This document shows positions 40,901 to 48,329 of a stretch of 64,000 nt of DNA, piece by piece (the first letter of the stretch is position 1; the number at the start of each line of letters is the position of its first letter). The stretch is from assembly GCA_009869945.1 (NCBI GenBank), contig WIXG01000066.1, positions 208,436-272,435 on the forward strand, in the 5' to 3' direction. A model generated the notes under the pieces. It saw only the letters and a list, made by a program, of their open reading frames with translations. It had not been told where the DNA came from and did no database searches. The position numbers were made by a program, and so were the translations under genes. Source of the stretch: Mesaphorura yosii. Taxonomy: Eukaryota; Arthropoda; Collembola; Poduromorpha; Tullbergiidae.

Positions 40901-42729
40901 TTGAGCAGATTTCACCACCGAGCACGCCCGATCCGAATGCTAATGCAGATGATGAAGGCGATGGTGATGCTCCAAGCACATCAAAGTCGCTGAGATTGGA
41001 TACGCAGTATGGCGGCGCAGATTACCGAGCGTCTCCAGTTGACATGAGCGTCGGTTCGCGGTCTTCGATTCTGGGTCCACGACCACCACCACCGCCGTGG
41101 TATTCCCCACCCTCTTACAAGTCCCAGGATGAGTCTCGGAGGTCACGGCATTCATCTGACGACGACTCAATTATTGAAAAGGCTGAAACTGGCACTTCTG
41201 GAGGGTCAGGCAGGCCTTCCTCCTTGAATTCGCCACCGTACGCGGCTGTGATTACAAACCCTAGTCGAGCTTCTCATTTCTCACAACGGCACAGTCTGAG
41301 CCATATTTATGTGGATGCGGGCGTGGGTATTGCAGCAGGCGCTGGGCGGCTGGGTGTCTCAGGTACAGAAACGAACAGGCGCTTAGACTGACAGTCGACG
41401 GTGTTTAATTTCTTGCCATTTCACTTACAGGTGATGAATCATTCATGCGAAGATCGCTCTCGTTATCGCCACCAGAGAATCAAAGCTATCAGTTGCATCT
41501 CCCTGAGCGACGAGACCTCAGAGACGAATACAATGGTCCGTATTCTCGAGCTATTGATGTCATGAACAGCAGCAGCAACAGGTTTTCTAGTCGTAAAAAT
41601 TTCGTCCCAGGAACTCACCTTGAAGACAGACGTAAGTGACCACCGATCTGATCATACATTTAGGAACGGACGTCAGCGAAAATTTCGAAATCTACAATAT
41701 TATCTTCATTCTCCCAGGTTGGATGATTCATGCAGCGGCAGCAGCAACGGGCAAGCATCCGATTGAAATTCCGATGACTGGGGTTCAAAGATTCTCACAG
41801 CAGGCTAAAGAGCCAATCAACGCCGCTGCATTCCAATTTCGTGGATTCGGATCTCCATCGTACTCAACTGCGGCGACCACAAGTTCACCATCGATACTGC
41901 CATTGTCAAAGTCACCGCTGTACGGCTCAGGCGGCGATGAACGGAATCTCAGCTTGCAGAATTATTCTGCGCTTATGGAGTCGGCTGGCGCTCTTGGCCA
42001 CTTGAGCGACTTTCAAAAGTACAGATTCAAGACAACCAACTCTGGCTTTGGCTTCGGGGCTGGTTCGCAGCTGAGAATGCAACTCACCCACTCCGGCGCG
42101 GACAGCGTTGGCAGCTCGACACGAGCCAGCTCATCTTCATCCAGCGCTTCGCTTGGCGGTGGCCATTCAAGTCAAGGCCAGTTCAACAGCTCAGCCCCCA
42201 ATCATAGTCACAGTCGCCATCAGTCCATGACAGCTTCAGGCTCTCACCGACCAGGAATGAACCACTCACTCTCATCGCTAACCAAGCCAAGAACCAAAGC
42301 AATTCGCAGCTGTCAGGTTCCACAGGAATTTCGTTACACGGCTCAAGAAGTTGATTCGATGGTTGAGCGAGTTGAAAATTATCCTGGACCACTTGTTCCA
42401 TGTGCAGTTTGTGCAAAATTTGTGAAACGAGAACGACTTCGTGCTCACATTCATGAATGTAAGTTTCTGCCGTCGAGTCTGCCGCCTAGCTTTGACTATG
42501 GACAAAACATTAAACGATTAACCTTTGACTTTCTTCAGGTCATTTGCTCCAAGGAGAGAAAATTATTTGCCAGTATTGCGGAATTGCTCTGAAATCAAAG
42601 GGAAGTTATCGCGTTCACATTTGGAGACATAAGCGTGGCAACTTACCAACCAAGAAATTCAAGCCTGGGACAGTGGCTAGACGGCCATCGGGACAGAACC
42701 ACAGCGAAGCTGCGGCTGCTGGCTTGTGA
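31930..42729 (+). CDS. BTB/POZ domain zinc-finger transcription factor (1097 aa)
   Basis: Exons 31930-32880, 34622-34945, 40293-40416, 40601-41362, 41431-41631, 41718-42458 and 42539-42729 join in frame to 1097 residues. A Gln/Ser/Thr-rich N-terminus (~260 aa) precedes a BTB domain at ~262-372 (SLKWKDYEAEVLDTLGSLYK, EWADVTLSCEGHTIKAHKAI, CSPFFRKMFQ | ESPCKHPHVIVNG, VIHFIYNGHVAI), interrupted by a 1.74-kb intron. A long disordered Ser/Pro/Gly region follows, then two zinc fingers at the C-terminus: a C2HC type at ~1016-1035 (CAVCAKFVKRERLRAHIHEC) and a C2H2 at ~1045-1065 (CQYCGIALKS...HIWRH). The layout is that of arthropod BTB-ZF nuclear regulators, where BTB mediates dimerisation or corepressor binding. 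I cannot name the ortholog. Start chosen as the first ATG of the long exon. Confidence 0.9.
34946..40292 (+). other. Large (5.35 kb) intron of the BTB/zinc-finger gene
   Basis: Starts TCG|GTAAGT and ends TTTGATTTCAG|GAC. The length stands out against the 60-90 bp introns of the same gene, so it may carry enhancers or an alternative promoter. Open frames inside it include 36269-36838 (189 codons) and 38354-38623 (89 codons with an EPEP-rich stretch), both on plus and without recognised domains. An imperfect palindrome lies at 39993-40026. No RNA gene recognised. Confidence 0.55.
39993..40026. repeat. Inverted repeat, 11-bp arms
   Basis: atccaaatcca (39993-40003) and tggatttggat (40016-40026) are exact reverse complements around a 12-base spacer, within a run of TTTGAT/TTTGGAT repeats in the large BTB-gene intron. 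Confidence 0.6.
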
Positions 42730-43223
42730 ATGGTAATGGAGGTTATCTCGACTCAAAATGGCCAGACAAACTTGTCAACAAACAAGAGCTTTAGAAATCG
42801 AACTCGGTGCATAATCATGATTATCAGACCAATGAAATATGAAATGGAAAGTTCTAGTTTGATCGCTTATACGTTTAGTATCCAAGTCTAGAAATTAAAA
42901 CCGGTGCGGGTGCGAGCCCTCGTCCGTCCCGACGACATGTTTGAACTTGTAAATTTGAGCGACTTGACTGCTGAGTAGTGATAGTAGTTCCATTAATTAG
43001 CAGCACTAAATGTACGTGCTTAATACATACTTTATTAACTTCCCTGGAGCTATTTTACGTGTATTTTGAAGAAAATTAGGAAGTAAAGCTGGGAAAGACG
43101 CGATATGCTAAAAAGTCTGTCTTAAGCTCGATAAGCTGTAACTTTACTTAATGTAAAGACCTTTCGTCTCGACGTCTTCGTATCCTCAGAGTATTCGCAG
43201 ACCCTTCTTTACTTGGTGATAAG

Positions 43224-43301
43224 CACGGTGGATGTAGATTGCTTGTCCGGCCCCTGCGTCTGGAGGAGCAGGGGCCGGACAAGCAATCTGTATCCACCGT
43301 G
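43224..43301. mobile_element. 78-bp fold-back element (MITE-like) with 8-bp target duplication
   Basis: Two 34-base arms, 43224-43257 and 43268-43301, are reverse complements with two adjacent mismatches (32/34), leaving a 10-base loop. The ends are CACGGTGG...CCACCGTG. Immediately outside lie perfect 8-bp direct repeats GTGATAAG (43216-43223 and 43302-43309). Terminal inverted repeats plus an 8-bp duplication are the signature of a nonautonomous DNA transposon of a family making 8-bp duplications (hAT, P or Merlin type; which one is undecided). It lies in the 3' region of the BTB/zinc-finger gene, between its stop and its poly(A) signal, so the transcript would carry a stable hairpin. Confidence 0.75.
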
Positions 43302-44014
43302 GTGATAAGATAAGTGATATTGAGAGTCTGAACTTGTACATATTTTATTCGTTTATTTTGTGCCGTTCTGAGAAAATCGAGCTTCGTTTTCAAGTGAAGA
43401 AGTGAATCTTATCTTTAGACGAGTTATCTTGGTACTTAGGGAGATTTTATACTACTATTTTCGTTCATTTTTATTTCTACTTTAGATTTGGGATGATAAA
43501 ATAATTTTACTGTGGTGCTCAACGAACTGCTGATACGTATGATTTAATGTTTACCGGTGAGGTACAAATACAAAGAGTTTTTGATGTCTGATTAGATTTA
43601 GGATTTAAAATAGCAAGTCGTCTTTATTTTGTGTAAGCGTACCTGATTGTCGTGACATGACTCGGGAGTTATTTAGTAATTTATGATCTATCTGTGTTTG
43701 TCCCAATCGTATCGTAATTGTCAATTAGCTTAGCACTAATTAAGTGAAACTCGTCATTGTTTAGTTTAGGAACTTGCTTTAGTTTCTTGCGTAGGAGGGA
43801 ACAAAGAGACAGATAATTAAGCTCGAAGCTCGAACATTGCTACAGGCTGACAGTGTAATCGTGAGTAATCAGATATTATTTCATTTTAATGTGTACTAAT
43901 GTGTATACGACAATCGTTAGCAAGAAATGAACTTCTCGTCTTGTAATCTGTATTATAGATTGTAATGTTGTAGTTAGACGATGTTGTACCCTTTGACCGT
44001 GAGTGAGTTGTATG

Positions 44015-44020
44015 AATAAA
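44015..44020 (+). terminator. Poly(A) signal of the BTB/zinc-finger gene
   Basis: AATAAA about 1.29 kb after the TGA at 42729 and 250 bp before the ZNF598 start. The 3'UTR therefore probably includes the fold-back element. Confidence 0.5.
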
Positions 44021-44269: not shown

Positions 44270-46212
44270 ATGTCCGAGAAGCCGGCAGCACCAGCAGCGA
44301 GGCCCAAGACTCACCGCCGACCACCACGGCACGGCGGTAGCGCTCATGCTCCTATTGTTAGGCCACCGGGGCTTGACCGCCGTCCGCCGCCAGGTTTCGA
44401 CCGCCTTCCACAGCATCGGCCGCCGCAGGAGCCGAAGCAAAAGGCTCCAAAGGGCGAGACTTCTCCTTCCGAGGACCCCCACGCCTGCGTCGTCTGCTAC
44501 CATCCAAATAGCTATTACAGTGTAGGGCCCTGCAACCACCCCGTCTGCTTCGAGTGTTCGACGAGGATGCGCGTACTTCTGGAGAAGAGGGAGTGCCCCA
44601 TCTGCAGACAAGAAATGGGGGAGGTGATATTCACTAACACAATAGATCGAAGTCATTGAAAGTTGACAAATGTGAATCCCCGTTGTTTGTATACGCCAGG
44701 TCCTCTTCGCCGCTGCCTCTCCGGATGGAACCCCGCCACCCTTCGCGCTCTCGCCCCGCCACCTGCACCTCCCCAAGTGGGGAATTTATATAGAAGGAAG
44801 TGATTTGAAGTCAAAGTTTGATGAACTGCTGGAGAATAGGTGCACTGTTTGCGGGCAAGTGGAGGCTGATTGGGAGAAGCTGGCAAGACATGTGGCTAAG
44901 GAACATTCGTTATACCCATGCGGGCTCTGTACCGAGCACTTGAAGGTGAGTAACCGTTTTGAAAACTCAAGGCCCTGCCCTTCTTGTACAATGTATAAAA
45001 TGGTTTGGCACTTTGACAGCTTCTTCCGTCCGAGCACCACTTCTACAGCCGCCAAGATCTGGCGAGCCACATCCGCACAGGGACGCCATCACCAAATCCA
45101 AGTACAAGTTCTTCAGGTCACCCTCCATGCCAGTTCTGTCCCGGGAAGCGGTTCTACGACAATGACGAACTTTTCAAGCACCTCCGCCGAGATCATTACT
45201 ACTGTCATTTCTGCGATGCGGACGGATACAACTTTTATTATAATTCGTATGCGGAACTCCGTGTGCATTTTCGGATGGAGCACTGGCTCTGCGAGGAAGG
45301 CGAGTGCAGGGAAGAAATGTTTACGTCAGTTTGGAGGTCGGAGGTTGACTGGAGGGGTGAGTAAATATTAGAGGTCGGCTGTGGTCTCCATTGTAAGCAA
45401 TCGCATGTATTCTCTCAGCCCACCTCGCCACAGCCCATTCCAGGTTGTTGGGGAAACATGGGGCGCGACAGATAAGGAATTTGGACGTCAACTTTAATCT
45501 GCCAGAGAGGCAGCCGCGTGGGGCGAGTCGAGCGGCTCGGGGGCCCACCAGGCAAGTGAGTGTGGAGCCGGTGTTCGCGACGGAGGAGGCACCACCACAG
45601 CCCAAAGTGGATACGGGGGACGTGGCCCAGTTCCCTACGCTGAACGGGGATGAGGGCGCCAGCAGTGCGAATGCCACAGTACCTACGAGTGCGGCTGGTC
45701 TCCGCTCTGCTGCGACTTGGAGTGGAAGGTTAAATAAAGTAGTGGATGAGTTTCCCGCGCTCAGTTTGGAGGAGCCTGCGCCGCGATCGTCGAACGCTCT
45801 GCAGGGTGCCGGTTGGGGACGGAGGGAGCAGGCTGGTCCTGTTGGAGCGCCTGCAACAGCTTCCAGTTCCAGAGTGGAGGACTTTCCTACGCTCGCGAGT
45901 TCCCGTCCTTCGTCGAGTCAGCAGTGGGGGCCCAAAGTGAAGACTGCGGCAAAGTCATCGACGTCAAAGAGCAACAGCAAAGTCCCTGCTCCCGCGCCGG
46001 AACTCGACTTTGTCCCGTTGCCCGTGCGAGCGAACAAGGCGCAGAAGATTCAGAAGAAGAAACCTGCCCAGCCACCACCTCCACCGCTTCCCACCTCCGA
46101 GGAGCTCCACCTCCAATTATTGATGGACGGTGCGGTGCCGCTACCACGCAGGGATCGAGAAGAGGAGGAGGAGAGGAAGCGTGGCGGAGCGCAGAAGAAG
46201 CGCACCAGCTGA
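44270..46212 (+). CDS. ZNF598: E3 ubiquitin ligase ZNF598 (Hel2 family), ribosome collision sensor
   Basis: Exons 44270-44623, 44700-44945, 45020-45356 and 45419-46212 join to 576 residues. A basic Pro/Arg-rich leader precedes the RING domain, C3HC4 from ~73 to 112 (CVVCYHPNSYYSVGPCNHPV ... CPICRQE). C2H2-like fingers follow: CTVCGQVEADWEKLARH, CGLCTEHLK, and a block matching ZNF598 closely (FYDNDELFKHLRRDHYYCHF, YAELRVHFRMEHWLCEEGEC, AHLATAHS). The C-terminus is disordered with repeated short acidic-aromatic motifs (VAQFPTLN, VDEFPALS, VEDFPTLAS) like the DEDFPSL/EDFPAL motifs of vertebrate ZNF598. The family ubiquitinates 40S proteins eS10 and uS10 on collided ribosomes to start ribosome quality control. 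It is shorter than the human protein (~900 aa) and notably GC-rich for this window. Confidence 0.95.
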
Positions 46213-46659: not shown

Positions 46660-48329
46660 TCAGTTTGACTGGCAAAGCTGCGCTGTCAACACGGGATTTG
46701 GGTCGGGTTCTTCCGTCATTATCTCCACTTTCACCCACTGATTTTCCTTCGCAGATCTTTTGATGGCGTCAATAACCGCTTGGACGTACAGACCTTCCTC
46801 GAATCCAGCACCGAGAAGACCAACAACGCTCTCCTTCTTCCATTCTTTCCCATTTGGAATGTTGAACGCTTCGCGAAGGCAGCCAATTAACTTAAGTAGG
46901 CCTTGAATGCAAATATAAATCATCGCTTATGAATGCTAATTAAGACATCACTGAAAGGCGAAAGGATAATTGGATAATTTCACTCACCATCCAAATAAAT
47001 TGGTGGCAACAGGCTGGACTTGTTGACTTCATCATTCCGAATGCTTTTGTCAATCAGCAGGAAGTCAGAGTCTTGCGAGTCTTCGTACAGTATTTGCAAC
47101 TCGGACGGATTTTGGACAGGCTCATTTTGGGACTGATCTTTTCCATTTTGATTAGGGCTCGCAATGGTTCGTTGTAGTGTTTCATTGCTGTACAACATTC
47201 CCTTAATTGTTTCACATTCAGCTTTAAGTATTCCTTTGTTCCCGTACAATGTAATCTCTTGGTCGAAGTGGCCTCTCGGCAGGTGATTTGTGAGACTGAT
47301 TGTGACAAACATTCCTACGCAAATGAGAATGCAAAATTCGCATTTTAGCCTTACAGCAGTTTCAGAATAGTGCATGAGCAGCACCTGAATTCATTTCCAT
47401 TTGAATCATTGCGAAATCTGGACTTGTAATTCTCCTTGTTCCGTTAATAGTGGCGGTGGTGGAGATGAATGTTTTTGTGACGCCGTGCACGCGAACAGCC
47501 TTCTGTCCGGTCAAGTAGGTTACCAGATCGATGAGATGCGACCCGAATAATGTTACGATTCCGCCACCTGTAAGTGTGCATGATTGAATATCTTGCATTG
47601 ACATCGAGTAAAGTGTACTAATTCTACTCATTTTCTTAGACTTTGTATTTGCTAACCCATTACATCATCGCAAAGCCAGTTAAACGAACTACCAAGAGTT
47701 GGGCCCATGTCAATTCGGCACTGGCACAAGGATGGTTTGCCAACGTACCGTTCAACAAATTTCCTCATTTGGATGAAACTGAAATGCAGTTGGTACAGAT
47801 TCTTAGGTGCTGCTCTCGCCAATGATAACAACTCAACGGAGTTCGTATTTGACTTACGCAGGATGAAATCTTAATCCATGACTCAACAAACAGATTAAAC
47901 TTGGGTAATACTGGGCCGCCAATACCATCTTCAACGATTCACACTGTGATAGACCTGCTGGCCGATCACAAAGCACATGTTTTCCAATGCCGAGCGCCTT
48001 CACGGCGATTTGTGAATGCAGGTTTGGTGGACACAGAATAAGGACAAGTTCGACATCTTTCCTTAGCAAGACTTCATCCACTTTATTGGTCCAGAACGGA
48101 ATTGACAAGTCTTTCGCAAATGATTGTGCATCTGTCAACAAATCGAACGCAATGGCACATTAAATGTTAGGCCTTGCCCTTGCGATGATGACATACGGAT
48201 AGACTTTAATTGCCTACCGCTGGATGTCAAGGCCCAAATTGCTTCTACGCGAAACCCTTTACCCCGCAAAAATGGAACAAGAAGCTTCACGATAGGGTCG
48301 ACTCCGAAAATGCCTATGCCGGGCAACAT
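46660..48329 (-). CDS. GFOD1/2: Glucose-fructose oxidoreductase domain-containing protein (GFOD1/2-like)
   Basis: Exons 48329-48218, 48131-47858, 47778-47657, 47567-47385, 47314-46988 and 46901-46660 join to 419 residues. The start MLPGIGIFGVD matches the vertebrate GFOD N-terminus and begins a GFO/IDH/MocA Rossmann fold. Further matches are the second strand (VEAIWALTSS), VELVLILCPP, VKALGIGKHVLCDRPA, a GGG loop (CDDVMGGGIVTLFGSHLIDL), TYLTGQKAVRVHG and the C-terminal GFEEGLYVQAVIDAIKRSA ... EIMTEEPDPNP. The Rossmann glycine pattern is weakened (GIGIFGVD), as in other GFODs. In the middle (~aa 245-335) is a poorly conserved Asn/Gln/Ser-rich insertion, which explains the slightly greater length than vertebrate proteins (~390). 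The substrate is unknown for the family; vertebrate GFOD2 is linked to extracellular matrix. I cannot separate GFOD1 from GFOD2. Confidence 0.93.

Follow-up and report, generated by a model that had tools for sequence, protein, structure and literature searches.

A 78-bp palindromic element of Mesaphorura yosii as a probable internal-deletion remnant from a family of DNA transposons that make 8-bp target-site duplications

With a probability of about 0.88, the 78-bp near-perfect palindrome described here derives, via internal deletion, from a family of cut-and-paste DNA transposons that make 8-bp target-site duplications (i.e., hAT or P), and is a non-autonomous remnant that is probably dead. 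The element lies on contig 66 (C66) of the Mesaphorura yosii genome, at positions 43224 to 43301 of the window (the whole 64-kb stretch of DNA that was analyzed; Table 1). It belongs to a family with a common end sequence, whose members stand at different 8-bp duplications, and it has an internal junction of its own.

The palindrome consists of two 34-nt arms (32 of 34 positions complementary) separated by a 10-nt loop, and the perfect 8-bp repeat GTGATAAG is present on both flanks; an inverted-repeat call reaches into these duplications (arms of 39 nt, 90%). An earlier interpretation made from the letters alone (the sequence-only reading) had described a nearly complete 78-bp inverted repeat between 8-bp duplications, which was borne out with exact coordinates. 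Since the element ends in G, the flanks also allow a 9-base reading of the repeat, GGTGATAAG; the other copies of the family set the duplication length at 8 bp. The two arm mismatches are adjacent (arm positions 11 and 12) and form G-U pairs in the sense RNA, so that the stem there is an unbroken one of 34 pairs; on the antisense strand, these two positions form an internal loop of 2 nt instead. The predicted fold of the sense RNA (43216 to 43309) reached -72.5 kcal/mol (z = -12.2), with 0 of 200 shuffles equally stable. Scanning the entire window for palindromes with 34-nt arms and loops of 0 to 20 nt yielded 11 matches with 6 or fewer mismatches, all of which were registers of this same palindrome (best, 2 mismatches), and the best palindromes in 30 dinucleotide shuffles of the window had 11 to 13 mismatches. 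The palindrome is thus far beyond chance.

Searches of the genome (93.0 Mb in 1127 contigs) with the element and its ends led to the identification of related ends on other contigs, and in two of the searches a control with the reversed pattern had 0 matches. These ends define a 28-bp family terminus with the consensus CACGGTGGATACAGATTGCTTGTCCGGC. The sequence-only reading had proposed a search for copies with other 8-bp duplications, and at least seven further two-ended copies (52 to 422 bp) were found, at seven different sites; all copy counts given here are lower bounds. Among the eight two-ended copies, including that in the window, six duplications were exact and two had one mismatch, and all of their sequences differ; the probability that a random pair of 8-mers matches at 7 of 8 positions or better is 0.0004. 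Fifteen other ends, from 11 copies, showed zero to five differences from the 28-nt consensus, which was built without the right ends of the C95, C181, and C296 copies (indel-shifted or degenerate, the latter two being degenerate) and without the sole end on C74. The family therefore has two features of miniature inverted-repeat elements (MITEs), i.e., terminal inverted repeats and dispersed copies with different duplications, the latter seen in the eight two-ended copies. Many homogeneous copies of a single size were not found, the two-ended copies (a lower-bound count) each being built differently.

Five further matches are one-ended (C4, C40, C74, C75, and C214), with no partner end within the sequence read. 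For C4 and C214, a right end was not found in about 4.0 and 4.9 kb downstream, respectively, and these downstream stretches had no second match in the genome; for C40, no partner was present in the 489 bases read, and a look-alike end on C585 had none in 891 bases. Looser end patterns add many chance matches: one gave 55 matches versus 20 for its reversed control, and a second gave 104 versus 33 (the best 100 of the 104 were listed). Among eight short stretches taken from the matches to the first of these patterns, those on C37, C58, C29 (at 313052), C7, and C145 had no family end outside the searched core. The family did not appear among the titles and abstract openings listed in literature searches, and no absence from print is claimed. 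Another repeat, about 160 bp long and with an end (CACAGYGTATAGTGACTGCTTGTT) resembling that of the family, occurs from C73:49602 onwards and on other contigs (23 places listed, several with the inner part only). In the same genome, TTAGG arrays, the arthropod-like telomere repeat, gave 40 overlapping matches on 12 contigs (C668 to C1114).

Table 1. Features of the window around the palindrome and two-ended family copies elsewhere in the genome
Feature	Position	Strand	Length	Remarks
BTB domain PF00651	34547-34969			E 1.8e-7
Open frame with last upstream coding exon	42529-42729	+		C2H2-like finger below Pfam cut-off; TGA at 42727-42729
Left target-site duplication	43216-43223	.		GTGATAAG; sequence identity with right copy
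Left arm	43224-43257	+	34 nt	family terminus in the outer 28 nt, 2/28 off consensus
Loop	43258-43267	.	10 nt	GTCTGGAGGA; first 3 bases match long copies, remainder is junction sequence
Right arm, inverted	43268-43301	-	34 nt	outer 28 nt equal the consensus end
Right target-site duplication	43302-43309	.		GTGATAAG; identical to left copy
AATAAA	44015-44020	+		putative poly(A) signal; sole one between 42600 and 44300
Family copy	C115:72401-72822		422 bp	duplication GAGCCCAC
Family copy	C190:121804-122187		384 bp	duplication GACTTAAC/GACTTCAC
Family copy	C95:39232-39561		330 bp	duplication GCTCTAGC
Family copy	C181:112658-112781		124 bp	duplication GTTTTCAT/ATTTTCAT
Family copy	C64:58301-58406		106 bp	duplication CTGTGACG
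Family copy	C29:357728-357830		103 bp	duplication GTATTGTT
Family copy	C296:56407-56458		52 bp	duplication GATGACAC

In C115, the longest copy, the inverted repeats extend over about 87 bp and are 87% identical. In an alignment examined by eye, the left end is common to the copies and is retained over varying lengths, and long deletions extend toward the right end. The blastn match between the left end of the window copy and the long copies extends to 43260, and the outer 28 nt of its right arm are identical to the left end of the C115 copy. The same alignment revealed that the internal junction is different in each of the five short copies (window, C29, C64, C181, and C296). Pairwise identity among the four long copies (C115, C190, C95, and, with a single end, C75) is 77 to 89%; the family as a whole is therefore not young. 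Furthermore, the 78-bp form was found only once in the genome, within the lower-bound counts. The unique 78-bp form, the private junctions, and the divergence of the long copies together fit an old family whose remnants arose through separate internal deletions. Two single bases bear on how the arms came to match. Both window arms carry a private T-to-C change at arm position 29, which is unexplained by plain deletion and may reflect partial copying from one arm to the other. At position 12, the left arm has a T that is otherwise found, among long or palindromic copies, only at the left end of the C190 copy, which speaks against complete copying of one arm from the other.

A probable sequence of events is that a transposase supplied in trans moved a family member into GTGATAAG, duplicating this site, and that an internal deletion, before or after the insertion, eliminated almost all of the sequence between its ends. 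The deletion would most likely have arisen when the repair of an excision gap was interrupted, or through a comparable break-repair event; abortive gap repair is a known route to such internal deletions in Ac/Ds, reportedly described by Rubin and Levy in 1997 (a reference listed in PMC4877112). The two terminal repeats would thereby have been left almost back to back, making the copy palindromic, and the product would probably have no present function. The lack of a second 78-bp copy leans toward a deletion that followed insertion at this site. A possible but doubtful alternative, which overlaps with this explanation and differs from it in the timing of the deletion alone, is that the 78-bp form already existed at insertion as a minimal mobile palindromic MITE. 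Such an origin would suit the perfect 8-bp duplication and the well-kept 28-bp ends on both sides, and every short copy except that on C296 (namely those in the window and on C29, C64, and C181) retains a right end of about 28 to 34 bp, resembling a minimum for the transposase; in the 52-bp C296 copy, the right side is reduced to a degenerate tip. However, every short copy has its own junction, no second copy with the same internal structure was found (again a lower bound), and a post-insertion deletion would leave an identical duplication. The sequence-only reading had taken the element for a recent insertion of a minimal DNA transposon derivative. Its non-autonomous character is upheld by the seven further copies, but "recent" and "minimal" gained no comparable support: the long copies are divergent, the differences of the window ends from the consensus (2/28 on the left and 0/28 on the right) yield no date, the 78-bp form turned up only once (a lower bound), and the copy may have been shortened to this size after its insertion.

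The duplications favor the word GTnnnnAC (20/32 position matches versus 8.0 expected, the word having been picked after the duplications were viewed). The target word published for hobo is GTNCGNAC and that for P is GTCCGGAC (PMC3276498), and nTnnnnAn is given as the preference of Hermes (PMC10368747) and, more broadly, of Ac/hobo/Hermes hAT elements (PMC10368747 and PMC3276498). This hAT preference is present in our duplications (9/16 versus 4.5 expected; P about 0.02 in a small sample). The full P word gave a mixed result: 25/64 positions match (15.0 expected; P about 0.003), its outer positions carrying the signal (20/32), but its CCGG center does not fit (5/32 versus 7.0 expected), and the Buster word nnnTAnnn is not preferred (5/16 versus 4.5 expected). 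Terminal inverted repeats (TIRs) are reported to be 27 to 31 bp long in autonomous P elements of Anopheles gambiae (PMC1562414) and 13 bp long in the zebrafish P element Pdre2 (PMC10983969), and a range of 5 to 27 bp is given for hAT (PMC3517528). The 28-bp core end thus falls inside the Anopheles P range and is one base over the hAT range.

A profile search with the hAT dimerization domain (PF05699) gave 48 matches in the genome, many of them on short contigs. The long open frames among these matches include one of 693 aa on C850 and one of 662 aa on C829. In the 30 hAT loci that were read (flanks of at most about 1.5 kb), no family end with fewer than 6/24 mismatches was found: the best match, which lies within an open frame at locus L051, had 6/24 and 10 others had 7, compared with 1 at 6/24 and 19 at 7 when the same loci were reversed. 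As a yardstick, the family loci contained 17 end matches with zero to two mismatches. The RNase-H domain of P elements (PF21787) had three matches in the genome, of which that on C524 was read; C524:39400-43419 includes a frame for a P-like transposase (PF21787, E 1.1e-45) that contains one TAG. Family ends were not found in these 4,020 bases (matches were no better than 8/24 mismatches), and the contig ends about 150 bases past the frame. Because no autonomous copy with these ends was found among the 30 hAT loci and the 1 P locus read, the superfamily is given as hAT or P.

The element starts 495 nt past a stop codon on the + strand. The sequence-only reading had assigned this stop to a BTB/zinc-finger gene and had placed the palindrome between it and a poly(A) signal. 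A BTB domain is indeed present upstream, and the C2H2-like finger in the last upstream frame is weak; the two probably belong to one gene. The AATAAA at 44015 lies beyond the element, and its use would therefore place the element in the 3'UTR, but an ATTAAA at 42894, 165 nt past the stop codon, precedes the element, and its use would place the element outside the mRNA. A location in the 3'UTR is thus plausible from the positions of these signals, and the earlier placement stands in part. Directly downstream, from 44270 to about 45361 on the + strand, are ZNF598-like frames with a RING and a C2H2 finger; the frame with the ZNF598-type RING (PF25447, E 1.5e-17) has its first ATG at 44270. A GFO/IDH/MocA-type oxidoreductase is encoded on the - strand at 47362 to 48156.

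If the upstream gene were transcribed through the element, the hairpin might have been exapted as a source of small RNAs made by Drosha and Dicer or as a substrate for editing by ADAR, which we consider unlikely. Microprocessor substrates are described as having a stem of about 35 bp (PMC6298569), and the predicted sense hairpin, with 34 continuous pairs and an open 10-nt loop, comes near to such a precursor. The position of the sole + strand AATAAA past the element and the origin of hsa-mir-548 precursors from Made1 (PMC1784062) are also consistent with exaptation, as is an Rfam match to mir-767 on the antisense strand. However, an mRNA ending at ATTAAA would stop short of the element, and none of the motifs that help, without all being required, to mark microRNA precursors (basal UG, apical UGUG, CNNC, and mismatched GHG) was present on the sense strand: the loop lacks UGU, the 25 nt downstream lack CNNC, and basal UG and mismatched GHG were absent on inspection by eye. 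On the antisense strand, a single CNNC is present in the flank, at +6. The Rfam scores fall far under the cut-offs (29 bits versus 90 for mir-767 and 20.5 versus 80 for mir-1909). Membership in a microRNA family was rejected, as mir-767 (E 0.0039) and mir-1909 (E 0.61), both antisense and below cut-off, were the only families reported up to E 1.

Arm stretches of 23 to 24 nt in the window copy are identical to the C115 and C190 copies (2 of the 11 family loci compared), and stretches of 20 nt are identical in 5 of the 11; any small RNAs could therefore be predicted to act on the family itself. The palindrome might then silence the family to which it belongs, a read-through hairpin in the 3'UTR of a host gene being processed by dicing into small RNAs with a perfect match to the ends of the other members, but we regard this as highly improbable. 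The maize Mu killer hairpin is a model for such silencing. Finally, a chance palindrome or an assembly artefact with no mobile element involved, for which one could cite the exact form being single copy as far as found, can be dismissed, since the scan, shuffles, and fold statistics exclude chance and the family copies on further contigs, whose 8-bp duplications are different, refute it.

Hairpin scraps of transposons near genes are known raw material for microRNA genes, as in Made1 (PMC1784062), and the window copy illustrates how internal deletion can shrink a transposon family nearly to its two ends and leave such scraps behind. The 78-bp copy itself is a real but ordinary transposon remnant.

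By analogy, the element could work like a hairpin of the Made1 type, yet it is not a member of Made1, an element with TA target sites. Made1 is described as 80 bp long, with two 37-bp inverted repeats and a 6-bp loop, as hairpin forming, and as the source of hsa-mir-548 precursors (PMC1784062). This near-perfect hairpin palindrome is the closest in shape to the 78-bp element, but Made1 is described as a family derived from Hsmar1/mariner (PMC1784062), whereas the 78-bp element has an 8-bp duplication, no second copy of this form was found, and it is not known to give rise to small RNAs. The P-MITEs of Anopheles gambiae share the 8-bp duplications, and the TIRs of the autonomous P elements (27 to 31 bp) are similar in length to the 28-bp core; in contrast, these MITEs are tied to identified P subfamilies and number 44 to 571 copies (PMC1562414), whereas at least eight two-ended copies and no master copy were found here. 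Mar, a hAT (Buster) MITE of Drosophila, differs in its 11-bp TIR, CAG(G/A)GGTAGGC, and its target nnnTAnnn, compared with a 28-bp core and no nnnTAnnn preference here, but resembles the present family in being non-coding, in its 8-bp duplications, and in ends that start with CA (PMC3517528).
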